From positions 1 through 64,000 of the forward strand of contig CAIKLP010000037.1 in NCBI GenBank assembly GCA_903828245.1: a stretch of DNA of 64,000 nucleotides. Direction: 5' to 3'. The position numbers were made by a program, and so were the translations under genes. Below the pieces are notes generated by a model. It did not search any database. It worked only from the letters and a program-made list of their open reading frames with translations, and was not told where the DNA came from. Shown here in pieces: positions 4,893-26,800 of this stretch. Positions within the stretch are counted from its first letter, which is position 1. Every line of letters starts with the position of its first letter. This DNA is from an uncultured bacterium (lineage in GTDB: Bacteria; Bacteroidota; Bacteroidia; Sphingobacteriales; Sphingobacteriaceae).

Positions 4893-4895
4893 ATT

Positions 4896-6942: not shown

Positions 6943-6967
6943 TTGTATATAATTGATTATCAATTTA

Positions 6968-8830
6968 TTAGTTGTTCATGTGTATCATTAATACACTAAT
7001 ATCTGCTGGAGATACTCCAGATATGCGAGATGCCTGTCCAAGTGTTCTTGGTTTTATTTTTAATAGTTTTTCTGTTGCTTCTTTAGATAAGGATACAATG
7101 CTTTGGTAATTGAAATCTGGATTAATTACTTTTTCTTCCAGGTTTTTTATTTTACCCACCATTTCCATTTCTTTCTCTAAATAGCTTTCGTACTTCACCA
7201 TTATTTCTGCTTGCTCTATAAATTCGGAAGGAATATTATTTAGCATTTCTTGTAAATACACATCTCCCCTAGCTAAATCTAGCAGTTCAATTTGTGGTCT
7301 TAATAATAAGTTGATGAGTTTAACGCTATGGGGTATTTCGTTTGTTTCTTTTTCAATTAATATTTGATTAATTGCCGCCGGATCTACACTTTTTTCTTTT
7401 AGGTATTTAATAATATTGGCGGTTTGGGTAAGTTTTTCGTTTACCCCATCCAATCTTGATTGGTCTGCCAAACCCATATCAAATGCCATTTGTGTTAATC
7501 GTATGTCTGCATTATCTTGTCTTAATAATAATCGGTGTTCTGCTCTAGAGGTAAACATTCGGTAAGGTTCTTCTGTACCTTTAGTTACCAAGTCGTCTAC
7601 TAGTACACCCATATAAGATTCCGACCTTTTTAAAATGAATGCATCTTCGTTTGCACAATTTCTGTGTGCGTTTATTCCTGCTAAAAATCCTTGGCAGGCC
7701 GCTTCTTCGTATCCCGTTGTTCCGTTTATTTGACCCGCAAAGAATAAGTTCTTTACCAATTTGGTTTCTAAGTTTAAACTCAATTGGGTGGGTGGAAAAT
7801 AATCATACTCTATGGCATATCCCGGTCTAAACATTTTTGCTTTTTCGAATCCGGGTATTTTATGCAATGCTTTTAATTGAATATCTTCTGGTAAAGAAGT
7901 AGAGAATCCGTTTACATAAATCTCTATGGTATGTATCCCTTCGGGTTCTACAAATATCTGGTGTCTGTTTCTATCTGCAAATCGCTTAATTTTATCTTCT
8001 ATAGAGGGGCAGTATCTTGGTCCCAAACCTTGTATTCTTCCTGCAAACATCGGCGAGCGATCAAATCCCTCTTTTAAAATTTCATGAACATCTTCATTGG
8101 TATAAGTAATATAACAACTTCTTTGCTCTTTAGGTATTTCAATGTCTTTATAAGAAAAGTGTCCAGGGTTTTCATCTCCCTTTTGTTCTTCCATTAAAGT
8201 ATAATTTAAACTTCTGCCATCTACCCTTGGTGGTGTTCCGGTTTTCATTCTGCCCGATTCAAAACCGATAGACTGTAATTGTTCTGTTAAACCGGTTGCT
8301 GCTTTTTCTGCTGTTCTACCGCCACCAAATCTTTTCTCTCCAATATGAATGACTCCATTTAAAAAAGTGCCATTGGTTAGGACGACCGCTTTGGCATGAA
8401 AGCTAATTCCCATTCCTGTTTTTACCCCTACTGCTTTTCCTTTTTCCACCAACACCTTCGTTACCATGTCCTGCCAGAAATCTACATTGGGTGTTTGTTC
8501 TAATGCTAAGCGCCACTCTTCTGCAAAACGCATTCTGTCGTTTTGTGCTCTTGGACTCCACATAGCGGGTCCCTTGGAACGATTCAACATTCTAAATTGT
8601 ATGGTGGTTTTATCGGTGATTATTCCCGAATAACCACCCATAGCATCTATCTCACGCACAATTTGCCCCTTAGCTACGCCGCCCATAGCCGGGTTGCACG
8701 ACATTTGTGCAATCACACCCATGTTCATGGTGATCAATAATACTTTCGAGCCAAGGTTGGCTGCAGCCGCTGCAGCTTCACATCCAGCATGACCGGCACC
8801 CACTACTATTACATCGTATGATGAATTCAT
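6968..8830 (-). CDS. mnmG: tRNA uridine-5-carboxymethylaminomethyl modification enzyme MnmG (GidA)
   Basis: MnmG works with the GTPase MnmE to place the (carboxymethyl)aminomethyl group on the wobble uridine of several tRNAs, using FAD and methylenetetrahydrofolate. The 620-residue length is standard. Motifs include the FAD-binding [10 protein letters not shown] at about residues 11-20, [54 protein letters not shown] and the C-terminal [21 protein letters not shown] at 8828-8830. In many bacteria this gene lies close to the replication origin and par genes, which matters here because parS-like sites sit just upstream. mnmE is not in the window. Confidence 0.97.
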
Positions 8831-8838
8831 TGATATTT

Positions 8839-8854
8839 TGTTTCCCGTGGAACA
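8839..8854 (+). other. parS-like site 1
   Basis: The 16-mer TGTTTCCCGTGGAACA differs at two positions from the parS form TGTTTCACGTGAAACA, which ParB/Spo0J binds near chromosome origins. The outer half-sites TGTTtC and GgAACA are conserved. It lies nine bases upstream of the mnmG start codon. The call is based on the motif and on two sister copies nearby; no parA or parB is in the window. Confidence 0.5.
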
Positions 8855-8871
8855 TTCCTAATTCGGTAATG

Positions 8872-8879
8872 CAAAGATA
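8872..8879 (-). promoter_or_regulatory. Bacteroidota -7 element upstream of mnmG
   Basis: On the minus strand this reads TATCTTTG, an exact match to the Bacteroidota -7 consensus TAnnTTTG, about 42 bases before the mnmG ATG. No good TTTG -33 element is present at the usual spacing. If used, the transcript leader would contain the parS-like site at 8839-8854. Confidence 0.4.
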
Positions 8880-8939
8880 GAAATTATTGCCATTTAGCCC
8901 CATGATTGATTTCAGATCTTTTTGGGTCTATTTATTTTA

Positions 8940-8955
8940 TGTTTCATGTGGAACT
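8940..8955 (+). other. parS-like site 2
   Basis: The 16-mer TGTTTCATGTGGAACT is the second copy. It shares TGTTTC and GTGGAAC with site 1 and matches the reverse complement of site 3 at 15 of 16 bases. It differs from TGTTTCACGTGAAACA at three positions, including the last base. It has no coding context. Confidence 0.5.
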
Positions 8956-9120
8956 ATAATATTGATAAGCTTTGCAGGTATTCCCAATTAAGCACATATC
9001 GGTATAATGGGATGTGGTAGGGGCTGTTTAATAATTTGACAAGATTAGACATTTATAGACGCCAAACCGTTTTTCTATTAGTAATACTGCTTTATATTTT
9101 TTTGGGACCAAGAACCAAAA

Positions 9121-9136
9121 TGTTCCACATGAAACA
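9121..9136 (-). other. parS-like site 3
   Basis: On the plus strand this reads TGTTCCACATGAAACA; on the minus strand TGTTTCATGTGGAACA. It differs from TGTTTCACGTGAAACA at two positions and forms a widely spaced inverted pair with site 2. Three such 16-mers within 300 bases are unlikely to be coincidental. Confidence 0.55.
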
Positions 9137-9632: not shown

Positions 9633-12600
9633 ATGAATTTAATTTCTACTAATGTAAGCCGTGTTAATGAACACAAATCAAACATTTCACAAGCCCTCAA
9701 AAGCTTTGTTTATAATTGGTTGCTAGTATTAACATTTCTTTTTGTTGGAGTGTCTAACATCCAAGCGCAAACATCTATTCTCATCAATCCAACAACAGAT
9801 GGTGGGTTCAATTCAGGAACCACCTTTGCGGATAATGGTTGGACGGTATCCAACTCAGCAAACAACCCTTGGGTTGTTGGTACAGGAATTGGCGCTTCAC
9901 CCGGAACAATATCTGGAACAGCAGCATACATTTCAAACAACAACGGTGTTTCGGCTAGTTATACACCGGATAACAATGCTACAAATTATTTTTATAGAGA
10001 TATAACGGTTCCTTCGGGAAAAACAAACATTCAACTAAAATTTGATTGGATTTCTAATGGTGAAAGCTCTTATGATATGTGGCAAGTCTTTATTGCCCCA
10101 ACAAGCATAACCCCGGTCGGTGTTGCTGCTCATCCCGGTTCTGGAACAACTAATGTACCAGCGGGAATTGCTGGCGCCACATTTCTTGCATTCGGACAAA
10201 CACAAACTACAGTCCAAAACGCTTTTATTCAAATTCCCACAACTTATGCCGGAACAACATTTAGGTTAATTTTTTCTTGGAAGAACGAAACTTTCGGTTC
10301 CGATCCCCCAGCAATAATAGATAATATTTCCTTAACTGCTACGCCACCTCAAATGTTTACTGCTATCTCTAGTGGCCCCTTTACAACAGCTTCTACATGG
10401 GATAAAAATGCAGTACCGGGCCAATTAGATAGTATCAAAATTGAATCAGGCATAACAGTTACTGCAAATGCTTCTGCTTCTACAGTTGCTTATGCTGAAA
10501 TTGGAGGTACATTAACTTATGCTACTACCGCAACCTCTTTTAGCACCACAGGTGGTTTTACGGTTAATGCTACCGGTGTGGTAAATGCATTTAATTTAAC
10601 CACCGGTAAAACATTAAACGTGGGTGGTAATTTAATTAATAATGGATCAATTGATCTTTCAAAAACAGGAGCAACCTTAGTTTTAAATAGCGTTGCTACA
10701 ACAACATCCATCACCAATGCAAATGCGATTACAAATGGTAGTACCAGCGTAACCTTGGCTGTAGCCAACCCACTAATAGTTGTTGGGCAATATATTTCCG
10801 GTAATGGTATTGCGCCATTAACCACCGTTTCAGCAATAAGTGGAACAACTTTAACCTTGTCTCAAGCAGCCAACCAAACACAAGTATCCGCTACTACATT
10901 ATCATTTGGTGGTGTTCAAGAAGCGAATGGTACGGGTTCGTTTGTGACTGGTGTAATTCAAAACTTAACATTTAATAATACAGCGCCCTATAATCTTATT
11001 AATTGGAATCTTTCCAATTCTGTTATTGGTACAACACTCACTTTTACAAAGGGTAGGGTTGCCTTGGGATCTAGCAATAGCATGACTGTAGGTACAACAA
11101 CAACATCAACCGGAACACTAACAATTAGTTCCTTAACAGAAGGCTTTACTTCGGGTAAATTTATAAAATGGTATGCCGCAACCGTTACAGGTACAGCATT
11201 TACAGCCGCTACATTACCATCGGTTATTGGCGATACACGAATGCCATTTGTAACATTAACAGGAGATTCTCGTCATGCATATTGGACTAGAGCTTCTTCG
11301 CCTACACCTACAACCGGTAAGCTCTCTTGTGTTTATTCTGCCGCAACAACATTAAGTAACACTTCTGTTGCAGACGCCACTATTATTACAACACAAGCAA
11401 CACCATCAATTGCTAATGCTATTACTTCTGGTAGTACAACAGTTACATTGGGTGCTCCAAATGGTTTAATTGTTGTTGGTCAAACAGTTACAGGAACGGG
11501 TATTGCTTCTGGAACTACGGTATCTGCTATCAGTGGTACAACATTAACCTTATCACAAGCGGCAACAACTTCTAGTACATCAACCGCGGTTACCCTAACA
11601 TTTACTTCTCCATATTCTGTAGGTAAGAAATACGATGGCAACTGGACTTTTTCTACAGAAAGTTCGAATATGACCGCAACGGGCATGAACTTGTTGTTGT
11701 ATGGATACAATGCATTTAATATTATTAATGGAAATACACGTATTATTAATGGTTCGGGTATTATTGGTACAACTTCAACACATCAAGCGGGAACAGCATC
11801 ACCTTTGTTAACAGCAAGAAGATTAAATATTCCTTTAATCACAGATTTAACAGCCTCTCCGGTAACATTAGCGTTAGCATCTGCAGACGTACCGGTAACT
11901 TCTGTATCTTCTGGAGATTGGAATACAGCTGCTACTTGGAGTAATAACGCAGTTCCAACTTGTACCGATGCGGTTATTATTAATCCATTGCACAACATTA
12001 CATCAACCTCTTCAGGAAACTTAGCTGCTAATATTACTATTAGTGCCTTAGCCTCGTTAGAATTAAGCTCGGGTAGTTTAACTGTTGGCTGTGGAACAAA
12101 TAATATGTTTGTAAATAACGCAGGTAAACTAACGGTTTCTGCGGGTACGCTTACAATTAATGGTAACTTAAATAATATAGCAGGTTCTACCATTAACCAA
12201 TCGGGTGGTAATATCATCGTTGATGGTAATGGAGGAAATGTATTAAACTCAGTTGCTACTGGAACTCCTTTAGTATGGTTCCAAGCGGGTGGTGGTACGT
12301 TTTCTCAAATCACCAACACTTCTGGTACGGTAGCTGGTAGTCCAAATGTCACATTGGCAGCAGCAAATGCAAATATTCAGGTTGGTCAAACCGTAAATGC
12401 TACAAGTTATTTCCCAGCAGGAACAACTGTTGTTTCTGTAAATGGTACAGCATTAACGCTGTCTCAAGGTGCATTAGGAACTAATGCATTTGGATGTACT
12501 TTAAACTTCTGGCCTACCAACCTTATTAACTTAACGGGTGGTAACTTAACAGTTGTGGATGGACACATTGGAACAGCAACTGCCGATAGAGCATTAACAT

Positions 12601-15600
12601 ATTCTGGTTCTGGATTACCAAACCCAAATGTTACCACAAACCATACAATTCAATTTGGTAATGGTACCTCAACAGATTTAGCAAGCACAAACGGGTTTGC
12701 AATTTCACTAGGATCACGCTTCGCCTTTGGAAATATGATTGTGAATACCACTTCAATGTATCCATATGCTACTCAAGCAACTTCATCTGCAGGAGTAACT
12801 TCTGGGTCTACAGCAATTACATTATCTGCAACCAATACAAGTATATTAGTTGGTCAGGGTGTTTCGGGTCTAGGTATAGCACCAGGAACAACGGTTTCTG
12901 CTATTTCAACAACAGCGTTAACCTTGTCACAAGCAGCTACCGCAACGGTGGCAGGCGCTCAAACATTATTATTCTTAACCCCAGCAATGGTTACTTCGGG
13001 CACAAATGCTGGTCCTGTAATCAGGGGTGACTTAACCATTACAAGTGGTGAATATAGAATCGCTTCGGGTACTACTTGGGTTGGTGGTAATATTGTAAAC
13101 AATGGCATATTAACAACGATTGGAGTCTTAAACATGGGTGAGGTTACTTACCTTAACCTAGCAACACCAACCGTTACTCGAAATACAGCAAGCATATCAA
13201 TTGGTGGTTCTGGTTTGTTTAGAAACTTATTACCATTAACAACGGCATTGCCTACTGCAAACTTTGCAAGCTTAACCATAAATAATTCAAATGATAATGG
13301 AGTAAGCTTAGCTTCTGCAGCATCATTATTATCCGGATCAAATACAGGTACAGTATCTGGTACCTTAGTGCTTAATGGTAACATCAATACAAATGGTGGA
13401 ACATTAGCATTGGGAACGGCAGGGCCAAGCACTATAGCATTGCCAACTCCAACCGTACCAACCGCAGGTACTTTAACAATTACCTCTGGTGGTATTACAC
13501 CAGGAGGTAAAATGAGAAGATATTTAACCCCTACCACACTTACTACAACCAGCACAAATATGTTTGCGTTGGTATCAGGTACAAACGTAAGAAATGTGGC
13601 TATGTCGGTAAGTGGTACTGGTACACAAGTTGCGGGATGGTTGGAAGCGGGACATGCCGATACAGCAGGTTTGGTTGCTACTAATAACATTGAGCTTGGT
13701 TTTACAGATTCAGCCGCAGTTACTACTGCGGGTTCTGCATCTGTTGTTTTATATGTTGCAGATTCAAGAATTTTAGTTGGACAAACAATTTCTGGCCCAG
13801 GTATCGCAACAGGTACATTAGTATCTGCTATTTCAGGTACAAACCTAACATTATCTCAAGCAGCCACAGCTACAACAGCGGTTAACGTTCCTTTAACTTT
13901 TGCAGGATTTACGAATGATGCAATATCTAGATCGAACTGGACTTTCGCTACAGGTGGTGGTTACAGTGCAGGTACACTTAAATTAAATGTTGGGTTAAAC
14001 GCTACAGGTTTATTCCAATCAACAGCTTTATCAAAAACATCTCCTCGTGCTATTCAATTAATTGGTGCGGTAGGAGTACATGCAATTGCTACGGGTTCTG
14101 GAGCTAATCCTGTTGCTAATAGAGCAAACTTAACTTTAGCAAACTTAACAGCGGCACCGTTCTATGTGGGTGGTGGAACTGCAGATATTCCTTGGATTTC
14201 AGTTGCTTCTGGTGATTGGAACAACGCAGCTACCTGGAATAAAAATTCGGTTCCTGCATGTACAAACTCAGTAATTATTAATCAGGGGCACACCGTTACT
14301 GTAAATAGTGCTGGTAATTTTGCAAAAGAAATCGTAGTTAATCCTACGGGCACATTAGTTAATGCATCTGGTTCATTACAAATAGGTTGTACCTATAATA
14401 ACAACTTCATGATTAACAATGGTACTTATACCATGAATGGTGGTACCCTGAAGATTAATGGAAGTATGTTACATAATGCAAACTCAATATTTAATCAAAC
14501 AGCGGGTGATATCATCATTGATGGTAACGATAGTGGTTTTGTTGCTCGAAGCGTACCTACGGCTGTTAACATTTTACAATTAAATTCTGAATTAGTTTAT
14601 TTAACAGGAGGAAAAATTACCATTACAGATCCACACGCAGCTAATGGTTCAACAGATTTTGCATTTATTTATAATAATGCAACGAGTGGAAGCACAAATC
14701 TAAATAACATACGCTTTGGTTTAAATCACACAATTCAATTTGGAGACAGTTTATCGACAAACCCGGGTGGTAATATTAGAGGTTTCTACATTGCAACTAA
14801 CTATTCTTCAAGAAACGTTGCCTTTGGTAAAGTAATTTTAAATACAGCTCCAGGATTAAATAGAAATGGGGTTTCATTTTATAACTCTACATCAGCAGTA
14901 TTATCAGATTTAGTAGTTAAAAAAGGAAACCTAAAATTATCTGGTACGCTTCGAGTAGCAGGTAATATCATTAATAATGATACTATTTCTACATCGGGTA
15001 CTCTTGCATTAAGTAGATATATAAATGCTGGAGATTCTGTGGTTACCACACCTCAAACAATTAGCGGAACAGGAATATTTAGAAACCTAGATAATCCAAC
15101 AACTTTCACGGCTGGTTTAACAAACCTTACAATCAAGAATAATAATGCAACTGGTGTAACATTAAATGTACCTATTTCTGTAAGTGGTACATTAACATTA
15201 ACATCGGGTATTGTAAACACAAGCAATACAAACCTATTAAGATTAGGAACTGCAACTCTTGCGGGAACATTAAGCTTCCCTACAACATTAACTGCTTTGA
15301 CATATGTTAATGGTCCATTTGCAAGAACTTTTGCGGCAAGTAGAACTGCTGCGGGTAATTCTTCAGCTACATTGTTCCCTGTAGGTAAAGGCGGATCTTA
15401 TATTCCTATGTATTTAGATCCTACCACCGCATCAACAGGAGCGGTAATTATGCAATCGGAAGCATTTAATACTAATGCGGGTACACCAGGACCTGGAGTT
15501 ATAGCGAGCACCTTGTCAACTACACATTGGGAAACTTCTGTGTTAGACGGACTTACAAACTTTACAAGTTCACATGTTGGATTAACGGGTTTAACATCGA

Positions 15601-18600
15601 TGCTATTATCGAATAAAATCTTACAATCTGCAACAGGTGCAGGTGCTTATGGTGCAATTATACCATCAACTACATTTACTGCGGGTGTTGCTCCAGAATT
15701 TAATATATTAACAACAAGTGGATCACAAATTTTAGCAGCAGATTATTTAGGTAATTTTGCATATGCTGATTTAACGGTATGTACAACCCCAACCACGCAA
15801 CCGTCAACCTTGACATTCAGTCAGAAAGGCGCTAACTCAGTTAGGGGGACATTTACAGCATCAACAGGTGCTTCTAACTATTTAGTAGTTGCGTATCCAA
15901 AAGACTCTTCAATAACCCAACCGGTAGACTATAAAACCTATTCGGCAAATGCTATATTGGGCAAGGGTAAAGTCGTTGCGGCATTAACACATCCTGTTAA
16001 TACATTTTATATGTCTAATTTAACGGCTGCAACTACTTATAAACTTTATGTTTATACTTATAATAATACCGCATGTTATGGTCCAGCTTATAATATTACT
16101 AACCCATTATATGATACGGTTAGAACAGCTACCACTCCAACAACTGCCCCTAATACATTAGCAGCAACAGCTATAACCAATACAGGTTATACCATAACTT
16201 GGGACGCGGATTCTATATCAACTTTTGAATTAGATTTATCTACAACTAGTGATTTCTCAACCTATGTAACTGGATACAATGCAAAAGCATTGCCTATAAG
16301 CACAAGATCAGAAACCTTTACAGGTTTAAATGGAAGTACAATTTACTATGCACGTATCAGGGCAATAAATGCGGGTGTGTATAGTAACCAATCTGCTTCA
16401 TTATTAACAACTACAGATTGTAATGCATTACCTGCTTCTGTATTACCATGGACTGAAGGTTTTGAAAACCAGACTTTGTACACCTATAACACGTTCCCTT
16501 CTTGTTGGAAAAGCACTGCATCTGGAACATATGCAACTTCTGCTTGGTATTTAACTACTACAAATCCTAATTCGGGCACCAAGGCAATAAGGTCAGTTTA
16601 TAATACAAATTCATGGGCATTTACCCCACGATTTGCATTAACAGCTGGTGTTGCTTATGACTTTAGTTTCTTCGTTAGGGCTTATTATGGTTATATGAAT
16701 TTGCCATTGGGCGTATATGTTGGAAAACAAGCAAATGCTGCATCAATGACTGATACCCTAGCCACAATTAGCAGTGTGAACAATTTAGTGATGGAGCAGA
16801 AAAAATACATATTTGTACCTGATACAACAGGAGAATACAGTTTTGGTATTAATACAGCTAATCAAACAGCGGGCACAAGTACATTTGACTATTATTCATT
16901 TGATGATTTTAAAGTAAATGTTACGCCATTACTAACTTATGATTCGGCAAAAGTAGTTGCAGCGCCTATTACATCTGTAACGCCAAGCACAACCAATGCA
17001 GTTGTTGCTAAATTACGTGTCTATGTTTCTGGTAATGCTCCTACACAACCTTTAAACGCAACTTCAATTACTGTAGGTACAACTGGAACTACCAATAGAA
17101 ATGATATAAGCAACCTTAAGGTTTATTATTCTGGTAATTCAAGTAACTTTAATAATTCTGCAACTCAATTTGGTTCAACTATAGCTGTTCCAACTGCAAA
17201 CAATATTGTTACGGGTACAACTAGCTTAAGTAATGGCGATAATTATTTCTGGGTTACTTATGATGTGAAATCTACCGCAACAGTAAATAATTATATTGAT
17301 GCAACCATTAGATCAATTACTACAAACGCAGTAGCAAGAACACCTATAGATACGGCAGCGGTTGGTAATCGTTTAATTGAGGCTCCAATGACCTTTATTA
17401 GTTCTACAGTAACACAAGTAAATACTTCTTCTGTTGAACAAAATGCTAAGAAAGAAGAAATATTAGGAGTGAAAGTGGTAACATCAGCAACTGGTGGTGC
17501 TATTAAATTTAACGGTTTAGATATTGGTACAACAGGAACAACATCGTTAACAGATATCAAAAATATTAAATTATACTATACAGGAAATAGTGCAACATTT
17601 GCGACCACCACACAAGTTGGTTCAACAGTAAGTACTGTGGGTTCAACAAACACGATTACAGATGATGTATTTTTAACAAATAACACCAACTATTTCTGGT
17701 TAACGTATGATATCGATTCGTTAGCTACATTAGGTAACGTAGTAGATGCGGAAGTGCCAAACATTTCAATTGACGGAATCGTTAGAACACCTTCAACTAC
17801 TGCACCAAATGGAGCAAGAACAATTCGTGCAGCATATTGTAAATCTAATGCAACCAGCACCGCAGATGATGATATTGGAAATGTGACCATTTCTAGAAAT
17901 GGAGTTGATGTGTTGAATAATGGTGTTGCTACACCATTGTTAAATAATTCGACTTCAATCAAAACATATTCTGATTTTACTAAAACTGTGGCTCCGGTTC
18001 AATTATTAAAATCTGGTGTTTATAATTTCTCTGTTAGTCAAATTAACTCCGGATCTTATTATTCAACAGGAAGAGCAATATATATTGACTACAATGATGA
18101 TGGGGATTTCTTAGATGCAAATGAAAAGGTGTTTCAAACAACCGCAACAATATCGCCTGCTGGAACACCTTCTACAGGACAGTTTACGGTACCTTGTGAT
18201 GCGGTTAGCGGTTTTGCAAGAATGAGGGTGGTTTTGATAGAATCAACTGCAGCTCCAGCTTCATGTGGTACATATACTTGGGGTGAAACAGAAGATTATA
18301 CCGTTCAATTAATTCCATCAAAAAGAGCTTTTGTAAGTAGTAACACTTCACAAGACACCACATTAATTTCTGCTGGTAGTGTGGATGAAAAAATCGTCGG
18401 CATACCAGTTGTTACTTCGGGTTGTGGCGATAGTTTAATTGTTTCAAGCTTTAGCTTTGGAATTGGACAAACTACTGCAGCGAGTGATATCTTAACAGCA
18501 AAATTATATTATACCAATTCAATCAATAGATTCTCGACCGACTCATTGTTTGGTTCAACATCGGTAACTGGTAATACCTTTACTATTACAGGTTTGAAGA

Positions 18601-21600
18601 GAATGGCAACTGATACAAGTTGGTTCTGGTTAGCATATGATGTCAAACCAACCGCAGCGGTGAACAATCAAATTGACGCATCTGTTACAAACCATACAAT
18701 TAATGGTGTTGTAAGTAGTCCATCAGTTCAAAGTCCAGCAGGTTTTAGGGTTATTGCACCACCTGCAACTTATATATCTTCTACTGCTTATTCACAAATG
18801 ACATCTGATGTATATCAGGGTACGAAAAGAAATGTGATGTTGAGGGGTGTAATTAGAATGAGTGGTGGTTCTCCGGTAGCATTAAATTCTATGGATTTCA
18901 ACACAACAGGTAGCACATCGGCGAATGTTGATGTTGACTCAGCAGAAGTTTGGTTCTCTTCAGATTCAACAACATTCTCTCAAACACTTACTAACAGATA
19001 TGGCTCTGCATATTTAAATCCTAATGGTAGCTTTACAGTATCAGGGTCTAAATTATTAAAATCTGGCGCCAATTATTTCTGGTTAACTTACAGTATACCA
19101 ACAACAGCAACAATAAATAATTTATTAGATGCTGAATTCACATCATCTAATATTGCAAACAGTGTAAAAACCCCTACTTTATCGGCACCTGCAGGTTCTA
19201 GAACCATTAAAGCGCCATATTGTGACTCATATGCTTTAGATGTTGATGATGAGGATATCGGTGGGGTGGTATTTAGCACAATTGCTACTGGTACTGATTT
19301 TACACCATTATCTAATATATTATCGGTAAATACCTATACTAACTTTACATCATTGCCAGCTGCTCCTGTTCAAAAAAGGGTGCCTACGCCAATAACAGTA
19401 TATATTATTAATTCATCAGCATTCTCTTATACAACATCGGTTAATGTGTTTATAGATTACAACCACAATTCGGTATTTGATTTACCTGGTGAGAGAGTTG
19501 CGCAAAACGTGCTGGCATCAGTTGCATCGGGTGGTTCTAGAAACTTTACCGCAAACATTAACATTCCAATTACTGCAATGTTAGGTGAAACCAGAATGAG
19601 GGTTGTTGCTGTTGAAACTTCAACTGCATTATTGGCTCCTTGTGGAACATATACTTGGGGTGAAACAGAAGATTATGTTGTAAATATTTTACCTCCTCCA
19701 CCAGGCGATTGGTATAACCCAGTATTTACTTCTGTAACATCAACTCCAAATGGAAATGCATGTTTAGCAGTACCACATCTAATTACCGCAGATATTACAG
19801 ATTCATCTGGAATATATCCTCCAACAATTAGATATGCAGTTAATGGTGTTAAACAAGCTCCAATAGGCATGTCAAGAACAGGTGCGACAACATTTGTTGG
19901 AACAATTCCTACTTACGTAAATCAATCAATTGCATACGATATTTATGCAACGGATAGTAGTGCTAATCAAAACTTTGATAGTTCTGCAGTATTTACTTAT
20001 ATCGATCAATACTTAAGTGTTTATGCAGGTGAAGATGAAATAGGAACTATAGGTTCGGGTACAAAACTTACAGCATACTCAAACTTATTAAATAGTATGA
20101 GAATCACAGAAGTTAACCTTTATGGTTATTATGGAACAGGTACACAAACGGTTTATCCTCCATATTTGAATACTACGACATTAAAAGATGATAACGTAGA
20201 GATAACCAATATGGGTTCTGTACCAATGAACTTATCAGGCTTTACATTCCAAACTGTGGGGGCAAATGTGAATACATTAGTATTCCCTGCAGGAACGATT
20301 GTTATGCCAGACTCGGTAGCAGTTATTAGAATGGCATCTGGAACACCAAATCCACTTTATAATTACTTTACAACTGCTGGTTTTGGTCCTAGTTCGGGTT
20401 CTGCAATGGGCGTGATTTTAAAAGATCCTAGTGGTGTAATTATTGATGCAATTGCATTGAACACCTATACATTCCCAAGTTCAACAGGTGTAACTTCTGC
20501 AGATTGGAGTGGAGCAGGTATTAGCAGTCCATCAGGTCAAGCCGGACCATCATTATCAGGTTCAGATAATAATACAGCAACCAATTGGCTACCTTCTGCA
20601 ACACTTACAACATCAATGGGTTACAAAAACACAGGATTGGTTTCAGTAGCTACTCCTACAGTTACTTGGACAGGTTCGCAATTAGGCGCACCAATGACAG
20701 GGGCCCAAATTATGACACCAAACTATACAAGTTTTGGAACCTATACATATGTAGCAAGTTTATCTGATGGAACTTGTACAGCTACAGATACTGTTAAAGT
20801 AACCGCTATTACACCATATGTAATTAATTTAGGTGCAAACACAGCAATTTGTCCTGGTTCAGCAATAACATTAGATGCTGGAGTGCTTACAGATGCAACC
20901 TATTTATGGAGTACTGGTGCAACAACGCAAACAATAAATGTATCAACAGCGGGCACTTATTCTGTAACTGCAACTTCTGCTCTTTATGGAAAAACTGCAA
21001 CAGATACAATTGAGGTAACAATGGGATCGTTCCCAATCAAACCATTCGGAGCCGATACAACATTCTGTAGAAATGGTTTATTTGTATGTGATGCATTAAA
21101 TCCGGGTTCAACATACCTATGGAGTAATGGAGCTACAACGCAAACAATAAACGCAACATTAGCAGGAACATATTCTGTAAGAATTTCAAGTGCAGCAGGT
21201 TGTGTAACGATGGACACAATGACCTTGAGTTACAAAACAGCACCAGTGGTTAATTTAGGTGCAGATGTTTCAATTTGCCCAGGTTCAAGTGCAACTTTAG
21301 ATGCGGGAAATCCTGGATTAACCTATCTATGGAGCACTGGAGCAACTACGCAAACAATTGTAGCTACAACAGCCGGACAATATATAGTTACCGTATTTGG
21401 AACAAACGGATGTTCTAGTAATGACACCTTAACTTTATCGTTAAAAGCTGTTCCAGTAGTTAATTTAGGAGTAGATCAAAACATTTGTACAAGTGATACC
21501 ATTACATTAAATGCTGCTAACCCTGGTGCTACCTATTTGTGGAGTACAGGTGAAACTACTCAAACAATTAGTGTAAACTTAGCAAACACTTATTCGGTGG

Positions 21601-22208
21601 CAGTTACCAATGCAGGTGGTTGTTCTGCGAACGATGCGGTTGTGATCACAAACAAAGCAGTTCCGAACTCTACATTTACTACTCAAGTAGTTGATACTGC
21701 AAAAGGACAACAAGTTAAATTTACAGCGGTTGCAGCAGCTGGTACAAGTTATGCTTGGAACTTCGGCGACCCAACCAGTCCTGCAAACACTTCAAGTTTA
21801 GCTAGTCCAACACATTTATTCTCTGCTCAAGGTACTTATACTGTAACCTTAACAGTAACAAATGTGGCAACGGGATGTAAATCAATAACACAAACGGTAG
21901 TGTCCGTAACAGGATTTGCTAATGACTTCGCGAAAGTATTTAACTTAGTTGCAGCACCGAATCCATTCGCTGGAAACACTAAGATTAACTACGAATTGCC
22001 AAGCAATGCAAATGTTACCTTAGAAGTATACGACATGATTGGTAGAAAAGTTAGCACCATTGCTAGCGCTACTTACCAAGAATCAGGTGTACATACTTAT
22101 GATTTCTCTGCAGGTGATAATCAAAATGCAAGTGGAGTTTACATGGTTCGTTTAATTGTAGACGGTCAAGTAGCGATCTTGAGAGTGATTGATATCGCAA
22201 ACAGATAA
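9633..22208 (+). CDS. Giant (4191-residue) multidomain T9SS-secreted surface protein
   Basis: This protein has a signal peptide ending about residue 46 (LLVLTFLFVGVSNIQAQ) and a T9SS type A sorting domain at about 4101-4191 (AAPNPFAGNTKINYELP, MIGRKVS, GVYMVRLIVDG). Between them is a mosaic of beta modules. Three 'SGDW..AATW...VP' units start near residues 246, 759 and 1525, followed by beta-helix-like text. Five copies of a ~60-residue 'VGQ..SG.GI..GT.VSAISGT.LTLSQAA' module lie near 366, 595, 895, 1051 and 1364. An FN3-like domain is near 2168, a MAM-like region at 2271-2430, and four BNR-neuraminidase N-terminal-like domains near 2439, 2586, 2899 and 3045. Two GEVED domains ('CGTYTWGETEDY') lie at 2735-2895 and 3196-3353, a lamin-tail-like domain near 3488-3640, four 'LG.. 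.ICPG..TLDAG' units at 3729-4010 and a PKD domain at 4010-4095. No catalytic residues were recognised; an adhesin or matrix role is inferred. Confidence 0.9.
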   Translation: MNLISTNVSRVNEHKSNISQALKSFVYNWLLVLTFLFVGVSNIQAQTSILINPTTDGGFNSGTTFADNGWTVSNSANNPWVVGTGIGASPGTISGTAAYISNNNGVSASYTPDNNATNYFYRDITVPSGKTNIQLKFDWISNGESSYDMWQVFIAPTSITPVGVAAHPGSGTTNVPAGIAGATFLAFGQTQTTVQNAFIQIPTTYAGTTFRLIFSWKNETFGSDPPAIIDNISLTATPPQMFTAISSGPFTTASTWDKNAVPGQLDSIKIESGITVTANASASTVAYAEIGGTLTYATTATSFSTTGGFTVNATGVVNAFNLTTGKTLNVGGNLINNGSIDLSKTGATLVLNSVATTTSITNANAITNGSTSVTLAVANPLIVVGQYISGNGIAPLTTVSAISGTTLTLSQAANQTQVSATTLSFGGVQEANGTGSFVTGVIQNLTFNNTAPYNLINWNLSNSVIGTTLTFTKGRVALGSSNSMTVGTTTTSTGTLTISSLTEGFTSGKFIKWYAATVTGTAFTAATLPSVIGDTRMPFVTLTGDSRHAYWTRASSPTPTTGKLSCVYSAATTLSNTSVADATIITTQATPSIANAITSGSTTVTLGAPNGLIVVGQTVTGTGIASGTTVSAISGTTLTLSQAATTSSTSTAVTLTFTSPYSVGKKYDGNWTFSTESSNMTATGMNLLLYGYNAFNIINGNTRIINGSGIIGTTSTHQAGTASPLLTARRLNIPLITDLTASPVTLALASADVPVTSVSSGDWNTAATWSNNAVPTCTDAVIINPLHNITSTSSGNLAANITISALASLELSSGSLTVGCGTNNMFVNNAGKLTVSAGTLTINGNLNNIAGSTINQSGGNIIVDGNGGNVLNSVATGTPLVWFQAGGGTFSQITNTSGTVAGSPNVTLAAANANIQVGQTVNATSYFPAGTTVVSVNGTALTLSQGALGTNAFGCTLNFWPTNLINLTGGNLTVVDGHIGTATADRALTYSGSGLPNPNVTTNHTIQFGNGTSTDLASTNGFAISLGSRFAFGNMIVNTTSMYPYATQATSSAGVTSGSTAITLSATNTSILVGQGVSGLGIAPGTTVSAISTTALTLSQAATATVAGAQTLLFLTPAMVTSGTNAGPVIRGDLTITSGEYRIASGTTWVGGNIVNNGILTTIGVLNMGEVTYLNLATPTVTRNTASISIGGSGLFRNLLPLTTALPTANFASLTINNSNDNGVSLASAASLLSGSNTGTVSGTLVLNGNINTNGGTLALGTAGPSTIALPTPTVPTAGTLTITSGGITPGGKMRRYLTPTTLTTTSTNMFALVSGTNVRNVAMSVSGTGTQVAGWLEAGHADTAGLVATNNIELGFTDSAAVTTAGSASVVLYVADSRILVGQTISGPGIATGTLVSAISGTNLTLSQAATATTAVNVPLTFAGFTNDAISRSNWTFATGGGYSAGTLKLNVGLNATGLFQSTALSKTSPRAIQLIGAVGVHAIATGSGANPVANRANLTLANLTAAPFYVGGGTADIPWISVASGDWNNAATWNKNSVPACTNSVIINQGHTVTVNSAGNFAKEIVVNPTGTLVNASGSLQIGCTYNNNFMINNGTYTMNGGTLKINGSMLHNANSIFNQTAGDIIIDGNDSGFVARSVPTAVNILQLNSELVYLTGGKITITDPHAANGSTDFAFIYNNATSGSTNLNNIRFGLNHTIQFGDSLSTNPGGNIRGFYIATNYSSRNVAFGKVILNTAPGLNRNGVSFYNSTSAVLSDLVVKKGNLKLSGTLRVAGNIINNDTISTSGTLALSRYINAGDSVVTTPQTISGTGIFRNLDNPTTFTAGLTNLTIKNNNATGVTLNVPISVSGTLTLTSGIVNTSNTNLLRLGTATLAGTLSFPTTLTALTYVNGPFARTFAASRTAAGNSSATLFPVGKGGSYIPMYLDPTTASTGAVIMQSEAFNTNAGTPGPGVIASTLSTTHWETSVLDGLTNFTSSHVGLTGLTSMLLSNKILQSATGAGAYGAIIPSTTFTAGVAPEFNILTTSGSQILAADYLGNFAYADLTVCTTPTTQPSTLTFSQKGANSVRGTFTASTGASNYLVVAYPKDSSITQPVDYKTYSANAILGKGKVVAALTHPVNTFYMSNLTAATTYKLYVYTYNNTACYGPAYNITNPLYDTVRTATTPTTAPNTLAATAITNTGYTITWDADSISTFELDLSTTSDFSTYVTGYNAKALPISTRSETFTGLNGSTIYYARIRAINAGVYSNQSASLLTTTDCNALPASVLPWTEGFENQTLYTYNTFPSCWKSTASGTYATSAWYLTTTNPNSGTKAIRSVYNTNSWAFTPRFALTAGVAYDFSFFVRAYYGYMNLPLGVYVGKQANAASMTDTLATISSVNNLVMEQKKYIFVPDTTGEYSFGINTANQTAGTSTFDYYSFDDFKVNVTPLLTYDSAKVVAAPITSVTPSTTNAVVAKLRVYVSGNAPTQPLNATSITVGTTGTTNRNDISNLKVYYSGNSSNFNNSATQFGSTIAVPTANNIVTGTTSLSNGDNYFWVTYDVKSTATVNNYIDATIRSITTNAVARTPIDTAAVGNRLIEAPMTFISSTVTQVNTSSVEQNAKKEEILGVKVVTSATGGAIKFNGLDIGTTGTTSLTDIKNIKLYYTGNSATFATTTQVGSTVSTVGSTNTITDDVFLTNNTNYFWLTYDIDSLATLGNVVDAEVPNISIDGIVRTPSTTAPNGARTIRAAYCKSNATSTADDDIGNVTISRNGVDVLNNGVATPLLNNSTSIKTYSDFTKTVAPVQLLKSGVYNFSVSQINSGSYYSTGRAIYIDYNDDGDFLDANEKVFQTTATISPAGTPSTGQFTVPCDAVSGFARMRVVLIESTAAPASCGTYTWGETEDYTVQLIPSKRAFVSSNTSQDTTLISAGSVDEKIVGIPVVTSGCGDSLIVSSFSFGIGQTTAASDILTAKLYYTNSINRFSTDSLFGSTSVTGNTFTITGLKRMATDTSWFWLAYDVKPTAAVNNQIDASVTNHTINGVVSSPSVQSPAGFRVIAPPATYISSTAYSQMTSDVYQGTKRNVMLRGVIRMSGGSPVALNSMDFNTTGSTSANVDVDSAEVWFSSDSTTFSQTLTNRYGSAYLNPNGSFTVSGSKLLKSGANYFWLTYSIPTTATINNLLDAEFTSSNIANSVKTPTLSAPAGSRTIKAPYCDSYALDVDDEDIGGVVFSTIATGTDFTPLSNILSVNTYTNFTSLPAAPVQKRVPTPITVYIINSSAFSYTTSVNVFIDYNHNSVFDLPGERVAQNVLASVASGGSRNFTANINIPITAMLGETRMRVVAVETSTALLAPCGTYTWGETEDYVVNILPPPPGDWYNPVFTSVTSTPNGNACLAVPHLITADITDSSGIYPPTIRYAVNGVKQAPIGMSRTGATTFVGTIPTYVNQSIAYDIYATDSSANQNFDSSAVFTYIDQYLSVYAGEDEIGTIGSGTKLTAYSNLLNSMRITEVNLYGYYGTGTQTVYPPYLNTTTLKDDNVEITNMGSVPMNLSGFTFQTVGANVNTLVFPAGTIVMPDSVAVIRMASGTPNPLYNYFTTAGFGPSSGSAMGVILKDPSGVIIDAIALNTYTFPSSTGVTSADWSGAGISSPSGQAGPSLSGSDNNTATNWLPSATLTTSMGYKNTGLVSVATPTVTWTGSQLGAPMTGAQIMTPNYTSFGTYTYVASLSDGTCTATDTVKVTAITPYVINLGANTAICPGSAITLDAGVLTDATYLWSTGATTQTINVSTAGTYSVTATSALYGKTATDTIEVTMGSFPIKPFGADTTFCRNGLFVCDALNPGSTYLWSNGATTQTINATLAGTYSVRISSAAGCVTMDTMTLSYKTAPVVNLGADVSICPGSSATLDAGNPGLTYLWSTGATTQTIVATTAGQYIVTVFGTNGCSSNDTLTLSLKAVPVVNLGVDQNICTSDTITLNAANPGATYLWSTGETTQTISVNLANTYSVAVTNAGGCSANDAVVITNKAVPNSTFTTQVVDTAKGQQVKFTAVAAAGTSYAWNFGDPTSPANTSSLASPTHLFSAQGTYTVTLTVTNVATGCKSITQTVVSVTGFANDFAKVFNLVAAPNPFAGNTKINYELPSNANVTLEVYDMIGRKVSTIASATYQESGVHTYDFSAGDNQNASGVYMVRLIVDGQVAILRVIDIANR

Positions 22209-22226
22209 TCAATAATTAATAAATGG

Positions 22227-22258
22227 AAAAGGCGACCTAGCAATAGGTCGCCTTTTTT
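22227..22258 (+). terminator. Rho-independent terminator of the giant T9SS gene
   Basis: A perfect stem (AAAAGGCGACCTA pairing with TAGGTCGCCTTTT) with a GCAA tetraloop is followed by a T run. It starts about 20 bases after the stop codon. The GC-rich core in an AT-rich background makes this a strong intrinsic terminator. Confidence 0.93.
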
Positions 22259-22283
22259 GTTTATATAAGATAGATAAATTGAT

Positions 22284-22291
22284 TATTTTTG
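22284..22291 (+). promoter_or_regulatory. -7 element of the Lrp-type regulator gene
   Basis: TATTTTTG matches TAnnTTTG exactly and lies 18 bases before the ATG. A TTG 24 bases upstream (22257-22259) is slightly too far for an ideal -33 element and overlaps the preceding terminator. Confidence 0.4.
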
Positions 22292-22309
22292 AGTTTAGTT
22301 TGATAAATC

Positions 22310-22786
22310 ATGAGCCACAACATAGATAAAATTGATGTTTCTATTATGCAATTATTGCAACAAGATTCTACCAGTGCCATCAAAGATATTGCCAAAGAAG
22401 TAGGCTTAAGTGCTACGCCAACCTACGAAAGAATCAAGCGTTTAGAGGCCGATGGTTATATTAAAAAGTATGTGGCCGTATTAGATGGTCAGAAGCTAGG
22501 CTTAGACATTGTAGTGTATTGTAATGTTACTTTAAAAGAACAAAACAAAGAAGCCTTATTGGGTTTCGAAAATGCTATTTCTGCATTACCAGAAGTATTG
22601 GATGTAATTGGTTTATCGGGTCAATACGATTATTTAATCAAAATTGTATCGCCCAATATTCAAGCGTACAACGATTTTTTATTGAATAAACTCAGTGGCA
22701 TTCCAAACATTGCACAGTTTCATAGCAATATTGTATTGGGTAAAATTAAACACAATACACCCATGCCACTCACGCATTTAAAATAA
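22310..22786 (+). CDS. Lrp/AsnC-family transcriptional regulator
   Basis: The 158-residue protein has an N-terminal winged helix-turn-helix at about residues 5-60 (KIDVSIMQLLQQDS, IKDIAKEVGLSATPTYERIKRLE). A C-terminal RAM ligand-binding and oligomerisation domain follows (LPEVLDVIGLSGQYDYLIKI). Lrp/AsnC regulators sense amino acids and control amino-acid metabolism or transport. The ligand is not predictable here. The gene stands alone between a terminator and a convergent gene that begins two bases after its stop, so it may regulate distant genes or itself. The family call is firm. Confidence 0.93.
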   Translation: MSHNIDKIDVSIMQLLQQDSTSAIKDIAKEVGLSATPTYERIKRLEADGYIKKYVAVLDGQKLGLDIVVYCNVTLKEQNKEALLGFENAISALPEVLDVIGLSGQYDYLIKIVSPNIQAYNDFLLNKLSGIPNIAQFHSNIVLGKIKHNTPMPLTHLK

Positions 22787-22787
22787 T

Positions 22788-23456
22788 TTATTTCTTTTTC
22801 CAGATTTGTTGGATTTGATCGGAGCTTAATACCTCTAGACCAGCATTTCCGCTCTGTGCCTTTAAATACATAGCATTGGCTACCACCATGGCATCTATCG
22901 ATTTATATTTTTTTAATGGTCCGAGCATCATTATTTCAAAAAATGGCAGCAATATTAATGCGATTTTTTCGCCTAACCTAAACTCTTTGCGAAAGCCCTT
23001 TAAAAATGAAGGTTGAAAAATATAGGTACTGTTAAAATTTAATTTTTGAATAGCTTCTTCTAATTCGCCTTTTATTTTACTGTAAAATATTTTTGAATTT
23101 TTATCGGCGCCAAGTGCACTGACTAATAAAAATTGGGTAGCACCATTTTGTTTTGCCATTTGGGCAACTTGTAATGGATAGGTATAATCTACTTTGGTAA
23201 ATGCTTCGCGCGAACCCGCTACTGCAATGGTAGTGCCTAAACAACAATAAATATCGTCTGCTTTTATTTCGGCTTGGTGCTTGGCTAAATGGTCAAAATC
23301 GCAAACAATATTGTTTAGTTTAGGGTGCGTAAAGCCAATAGGCTTGCGGCTGATAGCGATTACTCGCTCGTAAGCATTTTCGTTTAATAAATAGCTTAAA
23401 CAAAACTTTCCAACCAAACCAGTTGCACCAATAATTAAAGCTGTTTTATTTTCCAT
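22788..23456 (-). CDS. NAD(P)-binding Rossmann protein, HTATIP2/TIP30-like
   Basis: This 222-residue protein has a nucleotide-binding loop GATGLVG at residues 11-17. It is an atypical short-chain dehydrogenase of the NAD(P)H-binding/HTATIP2 group, with further motifs CCLGTT, VSALGAD and YSKIKGELE. The last holds the Tyr-x-x-x-Lys pair. The substrate is unknown; relatives are annotated as nucleoside-diphosphate-sugar epimerase-like oxidoreductases. Its start overlaps the end of ybeY by 11 bases, so it is probably the last gene of the minus-strand run from the aminotransferase. Confidence 0.8.
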   Translation of the reverse strand: MENKTALIIGATGLVGKFCLSYLLNENAYERVIAISRKPIGFTHPKLNNIVCDFDHLAKHQAEIKADDIYCCLGTTIAVAGSREAFTKVDYTYPLQVAQMAKQNGATQFLLVSALGADKNSKIFYSKIKGELEEAIQKLNFNSTYIFQPSFLKGFRKEFRLGEKIALILLPFFEIMMLGPLKKYKSIDAMVVANAMYLKAQSGNAGLEVLSSDQIQQIWKKK

Positions 23457-23877
23457 CGAATGTTCTTTTGGCTAAGTAATAATTTTCTTTTGTAGTCATG
23501 GTTAATTTGCTTGCTTTACTTTTATCGGTATAGCCCATTAAATGTAAAGCGCCATGTACTAACACGCGACACATTTCTTCCGATTCACTGACCTTAAAAG
23601 ATTCGGCATTTTCTAATACCCGATCGGTACTCAAAAAAATATCGCCCGCAATACTGCCTTTTTTTTCTGAATGGTCAAAGGTAATAATATCGGTGAAAGT
23701 ATCGTGTTGTAAATAAGTTACATTAATCTGATGCAAATACTCATCGGAACATAAAATATAATTGAGTGCCGAAATTTTAAATCCTTCTTCGGCTGCAACA
23801 GCCTTAATCCATTGCTTTAGCTCGTTTTTTTGCTTTAATTTATAATTACTTTCTTCGTTAAAAAAATGAATGGCCAT
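23446..23877 (-). CDS. ybeY: Endoribonuclease YbeY (rRNA maturation)
   Basis: YbeY is a metal-dependent endoribonuclease involved in 16S rRNA 3'-end maturation and ribosome quality control. The 143-residue product has YLQHDTFTDIITFDHS, GDIFLS and the metal-site segment HGALHLMGYTDKSK. In the classic motif HGxLHLxGYDH the third zinc ligand is His; here an Asp stands at that position. I recall Bacteroidota family members sharing this, so it is probably not a loss of function. It sits between the DUF4175 gene (six bases away) and the Rossmann gene that overlaps it. Confidence 0.9.
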   Translation of the reverse strand: MAIHFFNEESNYKLKQKNELKQWIKAVAAEEGFKISALNYILCSDEYLHQINVTYLQHDTFTDIITFDHSEKKGSIAGDIFLSTDRVLENAESFKVSESEEMCRVLVHGALHLMGYTDKSKASKLTMTTKENYYLAKRTFDGK

Positions 23878-23882
23878 GGTGT

Positions 23883-26800
23883 TTATTTTGGTTGAATAAT
23901 CATTAATTGATCGAAATAGGCATTGGTTTTTTCTTTGTAATAAGGTTTAAAATTTGGCGGAACCGTTCTCATTAAATCTATTTCGGCGGTTTTTAATTTT
24001 TTGTATTGTTCAAATTTAATATTTGCTGGAGATAATGGTGTTTTTGCCTGTGCGGCTTCTCTTGCTTGATCTTGCTCTCTTTCTTTTATTGCTTTTTCTG
24101 TTGCCAGTAATCTAGACATAATTTCTTGTTGTCTATTAATGGTTTGTTGATTGATATTCTTGTTATACAAATCGCTTTCGGTTTTTTCCATTTCCTTTTT
24201 TAATTGAGAAATTTCTTTTCCATTTCCACCTTGTCCGTTTTTATCCATTTGCTGCGATAATTGATCCATGGCATTTCGAATGGCTTGTTGTTGGGCAGCC
24301 ATTTGAGCCATTTGTTGCGACATTTGCCCCTTTCCGGGCTTTTGGCCTGGTTTCATCCCATTTTTGAGTTGTTCTATTTGCTTATTTAATTCGCTTTGCA
24401 TTTTAGACAATCCTTCACCTTTGCCTTTTCCTCCCGGTTTTTTGCTTGGTTTGGCACCAGGTTTTCCTCCTTGTTTTTTGCTTTGACTCTCTTTTTGCAT
24501 TTGATCTAAAATTTCGGAAAGCAGTACCGCTAAATTATTAATCGATGTCATGGCATATTGTTGACGCATGCTTGCTAGGCCTGTATTTCTCGCTTCTAAT
24601 GCGGCAATACTTTGTAACATGTTTAAACTGGCTTTACCCGTTTCTTTATTCACGATAGATTTTATCTGCAAGACTTTTTTGCTTAAGGCAAATAAACTGT
24701 CTTCGATCATTTTCATATCCTCATTTAAGTTACGCTGTGTTTTAGCCAGGGCAGTGTATTGAGGGTCGTTGATGTTTGTTTTCTTTGTATCGTTGAGTGT
24801 TTTTTCTTGAGCAAAAGAAAGTTGAACAAGGTTGTCTAATATTTGTCTTAGTGCGCGCATGTTAATATCAAGCTCTTCTGCTTCTCCCGCTTCTTGTTGT
24901 TTTTTCATTTTATCGGCAAGCTTTTTCATTTTGTCAGCCGCACTTTTTTGTGATTCGCTTGCTTTATTTGTTTTATTATTTTCTAATTCCTCATTGGTTT
25001 TATTCAAATCATTTTCGATGTCTTTTAAATCGGCAGCTGGATTTTCCATTTCCATTTTATCTGCTAAAGCTTCATTTTTTTGCTGTAAATCCTTAAAGTC
25101 GTTCTGCAAATCTTTGAAATCTTTGTTGAGCTTTTGTTGCGCATCTTTGAGCTCAGAAACAGGTGTTTTTTTGTCCTTTAGTTGCTCATTTATAGCCTTT
25201 TGTTCTTCAGAAAGAGTGTTTAATCTTTCGATGTTTTCTTTCGTTTTTTGCTCCACTTCTAGCTTTTTAAATAACTCCAACATGCGATCCATTTCTTTTG
25301 CAATTTCTTTATTGTCTAATTGCATTTTTTGAATAGACTCTTGTGTTTTTTCTTTATTATTTTCGGCAAGCAGCTTTTCTAATTCTTTAATTAATTCTTT
25401 TGTTTTATTATCTAATAAATTTTCAAATAATTCATTGATTTGTTTTTTCTTATCAATTAATTCTTGATCAAACTTTTTATAGTCTTTATTAATTTCGTTA
25501 TTTGTTATATTTTGATTTTGTATTTCTTTTACTTCTTCGGCTAATTTTTTTTGATTGGCAATTAATTCGGCAACTTCTTTTTTCTCTTCAAAATTAAGTT
25601 CTTTTTTCTCGCGTAATTTCTCGTTAATTTTTTTAGCCTCTTTCTGAATTTTTTCTGCTTGTTTAATAGCCGAAGCAATTTTTTCTTTGAGTGCTTTATT
25701 GGCCTCATTTTCTTCTTTACTGATGCTGGCCACACTAGGCGCTTGGTATACAAATAACTCAGATTTGCTCGATTTAGGCCCATTTAAACCATCATTATCC
25801 CATACTTCGAAATAATATTGTAATTCGTCTTCGAGGGCTAATCCCAATTCGCTGGTATTGATATGATAAAAAATTTGTTCGTTAGTTGTGCCTACTCGTA
25901 TAGGAATCGTCACCGTTTTAGTAAGCTTTTCTTTATTAATTTTAGTAATGCTATAATGAAATTCGAGTTTTGTTAAACCATAATCATCTTTTATTGCACC
26001 ACTAAAAAATAAATTGGCACGGTTACTAGAATCCCTTGCCTGATTTACACGAATGCTTGGATATAAATCGGGAATTACCTCTATGACATAATTAATGGGC
26101 TCTGTTATAAAGCTATTTTTGTTTTTTGCTTGAATACTATAGTTTAAATTTCTAATTATTTGTTTTCGATAATTAGCTTGATTATTTGTTATCCTTATTT
26201 TTTCTGTTTGTTGATTGCTAATAAAAAGGATATCATCTGCAGCTGTAGTTTGAAAAATCCATTGGAGTTTGCTACCTGCGGGTATGGTTAAATTGCCAGT
26301 ATTTTTAACTGTTTCGGCCGCTTTATGTAAATAATTAGGATAGTTTACTTGTATTTCAAACTTGACTATGGCAGGATTAGGCAAAACCGTTATTTCATAT
26401 GTTTCCGAATCGTATCCGAGTGCTTGAAAATAAAAGCGGCTGCTTTGTCTTAAGTTGAGTAAGGTGTATTCGAAGGTACTATTTGTTTTTTTCTCTAGTT
26501 TAAAACTATTGTTATTGATCAGCACTTGAATATCTTGTGGAATTGGATCGCCGCTTAATGCTAATTCGAGTTTGAGTGCATCGCCTTGTTTAACCACAAG
26601 CGATTTATTTTTTAAATGAAATTGAAAACTCGCTGGCTTTGCATAACTTTTATTGAAATGAATTAATCGTGCGCCTCCTTGTTTAATAAAATTAGGATTG
26701 ATAATGGCTGTAAGCAACAATATGCAAAAGGGAATTAAAGCATATTGTAATCGTTTTTTATTTTGTTTAAGATCTATTGCTTTAACAAACGGAATGGGCT

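Follow-up and report, generated by a model that had tools for sequence, protein, structure and literature searches.

A giant gene in the window (the whole 64,000-nucleotide stretch of DNA analyzed here) probably encodes a T9SS-exported adhesin with a tailspike-like stalk and rapidly exchanged parts, a reading to which we assign a probability of about 0.6. The beta-helix-like repeats in the N-terminal part of its product carry five copies of a nearly uncharged module of about 66 residues, related in sequence to modules encoded by phages. The T9SS type A mosaic belongs to what is known; the inserted phage-type module, for which no covering Pfam or NCBIfam model was found, is new.

The gene is an intact open reading frame of 4191 residues on the forward strand, with an ATG start and no internal stop, contained in a single open frame of 4210 codons in the search of the whole assembly (1.95 Mb in 99 contigs). 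Its product, of about 430 kDa as predicted, is 26% serine and threonine and low in charge. The reading frame, the mosaic of a T9SS cargo protein and the sorting tail were all recognized in a preliminary description of this DNA, and are borne out here; that description had overlooked the phage-type module, as well as the turnover at this locus. The predicted parts of the protein are as follows.

9633..22208, + strand: giant T9SS type A mosaic protein, 4191 aa (ORF, Pfam, NCBIfam)
9633..9770, + strand: putative N-terminal hydrophobic, signal-peptide-like segment, aa 1-46 (judged from sequence)
9771..10349, + strand: N-terminal domain, aa 47-239 (match to L014)
10353..11807, + strand: beta-helix-like super-repeat A, aa ~241-725 (internal repeats, weak match to module-free profile)
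11832..14132, + strand: beta-helix-like super-repeat B, aa ~734-1500 (internal repeats, module-free profile)
14166..15503, + strand: beta-helix-like super-repeat C, aa ~1512-1957, module-free, contains a G8 match (Pfam, module-free profile)
16146..16397, + strand: FN3-like domain, aa 2172-2255, below Pfam cut-off (Pfam)
16869..19703, + strand: BNR_assoc_N and GEVED units, aa ~2413-3357 (Pfam, repeats)
20175..20456, + strand: lamin-tail-like domain, aa 3515-3608, below Pfam cut-off (Pfam)
20823..21662, + strand: four 'ICPG' repeats of ~70 residues each, aa ~3731-4010 (internal repeats)
21684..21899, + strand: PKD domain, aa 4018-4089 (Pfam)
21954..22190, + strand: T9SS type A sorting tail, aa 4108-4186 (NCBIfam)

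Matches above the curated Pfam cut-offs were obtained for BNR_assoc_N (4 stretches), GEVED (2), PKD_4 and G8, and matches below them for LTD, fn3 and Por_Secre_tail; thus the BNR, GEVED and PKD units of the earlier domain list are confirmed, whereas its FN3 and lamin-tail units score below cut-off. The tail itself scores 37.5 bits against a cut-off of 23 with the NCBIfam type A model (TIGR04183), and 22.2 against a cut-off of 27 with the Pfam tail model. The N-terminal domain is common to L014 (51% identity over aa 20-239). Self-comparison of the protein by tiles recovered its internal repeats, including the 'ICPG' units and the segment earlier called beta-helix-like, which is real as super-repeats A, B and C (together aa ~241-1957) and whose fold is putative.

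No catalytic family was found by Pfam and NCBIfam searches of the whole protein, consistent with the earlier statement that it has no visible enzyme domain, and a search against PDB sequences returned weak matches only, the top one a PKD-like chain. The genome encodes SprA, the protein of the export channel (2547.5 bits); its match, at G000:C24:25710-32636, contains one in-frame stop, a TAA. The type A tail, the presence of SprA and the lack of a catalytic family make a surface adhesin the best reading, so the proposal of a cell-surface adhesin or matrix protein holds as the leading interpretation, with a small share left to an enzyme. Surface location and adhesion, the latter from architecture, are what we infer, as are module function and the direction of transfer discussed below.

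The five modules were located as follows, two in super-repeat A, three in B and none in C.

10710..10910, + strand: phage-type module 1, aa ~355-428 (profile match)
11409..11606, + strand: phage-type module 2, aa ~590-660 (profile match, AF2)
12309..12512, + strand: phage-type module 3, aa ~892-960 (profile match, module-free repeat comparison)
12777..12977, + strand: phage-type module 4, aa ~1048-1117 (profile match, module-free repeat comparison)
13704..13904, + strand: phage-type module 5, aa ~1357-1425 (profile match)

All five score 48-65 bits with a profile built without the window copies, from 27 rows of which 23 are viral and 4 bacterial, and these scores support the sequence relation of the modules to phage copies. 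In the control with the same profile, none of 200 block-shuffled versions of the giant protein gave a reported match. Modules 2-5 are 45-64% identical to the first copy at the protein level, and matches within the gene are 66-81% at the nucleotide level; these values lend no support to the idea that the module moved recently as an element of DNA. The composition is rich in serine and threonine and low in charge: the five copies contain 0, 0, 0, 0 and 3 Asp, Glu, Lys and Arg residues, and the median over 41 viral rows is 1.

An AF2 model of the module, computed from 46 rows (pLDDT 87.3, pTM 0.72), has six strands in a small all-beta arrangement; the module is predicted to be a small beta-barrel. 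In the VIA comparison the best fit was 8eci (Z 9.3, rmsd 2.3 over 71 residues, 38% identity), which also appears as a weak match (E 0.055) in the PDB sequence search of the giant protein. It was followed by residues 283-371 of LKA1 gp49 (4ru4, Z 9.2), the phage tail tube 9n71 (Z 9.0) and residues 136-232 of the K1 capsule lyase 7w1c (Z 8.3). Ubiquitin E1 enzymes fit at Z of 7.5 or less and an ATPase also fits at lower Z, a range (Z under 8) in which VIA warns that a match may reflect merely a common arrangement. Foldseek against the PDB gave nothing at E<=0.001, nor did the module profile match any PDB sequence, and Foldseek found 12 viral predicted structures at E<=0.001, with query TM of 0.75-0.85. 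Given the fits to ubiquitin E1 enzymes and the ATPase, and the lack of a significant Foldseek match in the PDB, the fold alone is no proof of descent.

The relation of the modules to the repeats was examined with a module-free profile built from repeat C and the sequence of a homologue of 1712 residues from a genome of another family of the same class (G057; 38% identity over 855 columns, module-free); the profile has three rows, one of which contains more than one unsplit repeat of that homologue. Repeat B matches profile positions 5-139 and then 232-434, and the intervening aa 884-1121 comprise 238 residues against 92 expected, an excess of 146 that corresponds to about two modules. Judged by this alignment, modules 3 and 4 interrupt repeat B. 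As repeat A matches the profile weakly (7.8 bits), the sequence argument for insertion is clearest for modules 3 and 4, and less clear for modules 1, 2 and 5. In an AF2 model of repeat B with two modules (mean pLDDT 62.8, pTM 0.35) the modules are good and the remainder poor, so the beta-helix and a side-on placement of the modules lack structural confirmation.

The surroundings of the gene contain three further features.

8839..9136, no strand assigned: three parS-like sites between mnmG and the giant gene (pattern search)
22227..22256, scored on the - strand: terminator-like inverted repeat directly 3' of the stop codon
22310..22786, + strand: Lrp/AsnC-type regulator gene (Pfam)

The preliminary description had noted the parS-like sites and proposed that an origin-proximal position could raise the dosage of the gene. 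The cluster is real: three sites were observed against 0.42 expected, three occurred in 1 of 100 shuffles, and two of the three are kept in the same-genus genome G003. When up to 2 mismatches are allowed, the parS pattern occurs at 14 places across the assembly versus 8 for a reversed control, so it is the cluster that is notable and not single sites. The dosage idea did not gain support, since dnaA lies on another contig (C20) of a fragmented assembly and the distance to the origin is unreadable.

The Lrp/AsnC gene follows giant T9SS-type genes in relatives also. It matches in 3 of 6 genus genomes, including this one, which makes the neighborhood visible in three. In G002 it comes after a tandem pair of giant genes, called a (at least 2451 aa) and b (2789 aa), and in G003 after a giant-gene fragment of at least 1559 aa; in two more genomes (G027 and G028) giant genes precede an ORF that by eye looks Lrp/AsnC-like. 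The G003 fragment is 85% identical to gene b of G002 over all 1559 residues, so gene b is stable in these two; nothing that corresponds to it lies next to the window gene. The window gene resembles gene a in its final 490 residues (69% identity), and 823 bp across the gene end and beyond are 86% identical in DNA to G002, compared with 79% for neighboring genes. Upstream of the tail, similarity to gene a is of the BNR/GEVED type alone (32%); contig ends cut gene a of G002 and the G003 genes, so that these are comparisons of partial genes. None of the 5 genus relatives yielded a match to residues 1-1989, in contrast to the C-terminal half, for which generic matches exist in 57 of 60 genomes. The sister genome G003 is 92% identical in DNA over 22250-26528 and 86% over 3357-8923 on the mnmG side, where it leads into a protein whose N-terminus is of an unrelated beta-helix type and shares 33% identity with the one in G027. 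Turnover is rapid in the body of the gene, and the part upstream of the tail is exchanged quickly between related species.

Turnover of this kind looks general for T9SS genes here. A second T9SS-type protein, of 1504 aa with PKD, BNR_assoc_N and a sorting tail, is encoded at 36651-41165, and its gene is missing in all 5 other genus genomes; the notion of the giant gene as a special hypervariable island is weakened by this. The window also encodes, at 47840-51208, a 1122-aa protein with no Pfam match at E<=0.001.

These data bear on the view that the protein is a T9SS mosaic of the usual sort, its modules being neutral spacers with no role of their own. Such spacers could well have an S/T-rich, low-charge composition, the entire N-terminal half is missing in related species, and genes of this type turn over generally. 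We nevertheless regard this as rather unlikely, as the five copies have diverged and yet all keep the reading frame and invariant core residues.

The distribution of the module was examined in three overlapping draws of genomes, each including this one. With a narrow profile (E<=0.001), it was found in 3 of 120 relatives, namely this genome with 5 copies, G044 and G055. IMG/VR yielded 59 module loci on viral contigs among 189 pattern matches. Scanning of 37 host proteins of the module (33 viral and 4 bacterial, near-duplicates omitted) gave PHROGs for virion structural, head closure, tail sheath, baseplate wedge and tail fibre proteins, with matches to PHROGs 5838 and 10467 covering the module itself; one viral host (L095) has a PF12195 match below cut-off. 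The viral evidence comes from IMG/VR contigs, PHROGs and BFVD, and a tblastn search of isolated phage genomes with module 2 found none at 1e-3 and one weak match (E 0.3). The nearest phage relative, L076, adjoins genes for a major head protein, an endolysin and a tail protein.

The bacterial hosts show the module set into different proteins. A SusD protein of G260 (L115 943-2691, G260:C5; Pfam SusD_RagB and SusD-like_3) contains one in-frame copy. Its alignment with the solved SusD structure 9sje breaks off at query residue 335 and continues from 409, an interval of 73 residues in the query versus 27 in the 9sje chain. Three tandem modules occur in one surface-type protein in each of G055 (L112 5205-7889) and G643 (L121), which belong to the same genus, and further bacterial modules sit in large surface-type proteins.

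These observations raise the question of which side the module came from, and here one must weigh the proposal that it is an old bacterial surface domain borrowed by phages, with no phage part captured in this gene. A wider profile (E<=1e-4) finds copies in 21 of 395 genomes of the class, spread over several families, some of them conserved at one site within a genus, and a tree of 69 columns neither roots nor orders the phage and bacterial groups, all of which would suit an old bacterial domain. Set against this, the module is rare in bacteria, being detected with the narrow profile in 3 of 395 genomes of the phylum as compared with the 59 viral-contig loci. It was likewise found in none of 5 same-genus genomes, two of which are just 83-84% complete so that absence may equal missing sequence there, and a phage protein (L076) is the best match of copies 2, 4 and 5 (72, 63 and 62%). 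On balance we consider a bacterial origin unlikely. The best match of copy 1 is copy 2, and copy 3 is closest to viral copies. The window label has to change four times on the tree, for the most part at weakly supported forks; the tree neither groups the five copies nor rejects a single origin (AU p of 0.099 for one clade), and 69 columns are too few for the tree to settle one versus several origins or the direction of transfer.

Taken together, the module could be an uncatalogued, transferable insertion domain that moves between the virion proteins of phages and the surface proteins of Bacteroidota, five copies of which have been built into one giant adhesin of tailspike architecture that may bind to the surfaces bound by phage tails. 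We hold this interpretation tentatively, at somewhat less than even odds. It includes the possibility that loops of unrelated folds (beta-helix-like repeats, SusD and others) accept the module, a tolerance that perhaps stems from its end strands lying together. The modules of the giant gene would probably have come from a phage-associated gene pool, either once, with subsequent spread inside the gene, or several times.

How the parts might work together can be outlined. The tail would act as the export signal, and the type IX system would export the protein as type A cargo, to be displayed on, or shed from, the cell surface. The beta-helix-like repeats would form the N-terminal stalk of a modular adhesin or matrix protein, and beta-sandwich-type domains (FN3, BNR_assoc_N, GEVED, LTD, Ig-like and PKD) the remainder. 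The stalk would bear five small beta-barrels of a type that is otherwise found in the virion proteins of phages, where it interrupts the beta-helices of tailspikes.

Work on phage proteins offers two functional readings for such a module, binding or help in catalysis. According to the LKA1 gp49 paper, the beta-helix of that protein is interrupted at residues 284-370 by a beta-barrel insertion domain (PMC5701251). In the K1F endosialidase, a beta-barrel is one of three polysialic acid binding sites (PMC12632334), and promiscuous Ig-like domains are small beta domains found across phage head, tail and decoration proteins (PMC7602432). The main functional rival of the adhesin reading is a hidden polysaccharide depolymerase in which repeats and inserted barrels form an intra-chain cleft as in KP34gp57 and LKA1 gp49, and we consider it unlikely: the module fold matches exactly the LKA1 insertion domain, the barrel of which helps to build the active site (PMC5701251), and the KP34gp57 paper takes a barrel insertion as a depolymerase fingerprint and names bacterial examples (PMC10653864), but neither Pfam nor NCBIfam returned a lyase or hydrolase family, the repeats minus the modules are low in acidic residues (3.2%), and the near-chargeless modules speak against a share in catalysis when LKA1 and KP34 use Arg and Asp residues of the barrel (PMC5701251 and PMC10653864). 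In the adhesin, the most likely role of the modules would be to make the stalk wider or stiffer, or to present surfaces that bind glycans or other cells.

One small, recognizable module connects a rapidly changing surface gene of a bacterium with the pool of phage structural genes. If the module is what binds, adhesive parts are common to bacteria and phages; if it serves as scaffold only, it represents a natural near-chargeless insertion domain tolerated by several unrelated proteins. The combination of a beta-helix with an inserted barrel, read in phages as a mark of depolymerases, may occur in proteins that lack an evident active site.

Among known systems, we know of no described adhesin with phage-type barrel modules inside beta-helix-like repeats. 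Literature searches found no paper on a giant T9SS beta-helix adhesin and none containing the motif letters TLTLSQ, and among papers on nested or shuffled insertion domains none was recognized, by title or start of abstract, as this case, which is no proof of novelty. SprB-type gliding adhesins have a type B sorting tail, in contrast to the giant protein, whose tail is type A only by NCBIfam. The best structural fit of the module, the decoration protein of Arthrobacter phage Bridgette (8eci chain 1), is a separate capsid protein, whereas the module here is an insert. The endosialidase beta-barrel (PF12195; 4hiz, 3ju4) gave Foldseek matches to the module at 16-28% identity, none at E<=0.001, and PF12195 had no match to window module 2 at E<=0.1. 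Promiscuous phage Ig-like domains are likewise small beta domains in virion proteins; the module differs from them in fitting a barrel and not an Ig sandwich, and in also occurring inside bacterial surface proteins. LKA1 gp49 (4ru4) and KP34gp57 (8bke) share with the giant protein a small beta-barrel that interrupts a beta-helix, but they are polysaccharide-cleaving phage proteins, whereas here there is no catalytic family and the modules are nearly uncharged. Closest in overall plan are the large T9SS type A cargo proteins of Bacteroidota, with the same signal-like N-terminus, beta-rich mosaic and type A tail, from which the giant protein is set apart by its five phage-type barrel modules inside beta-helix-like repeats.
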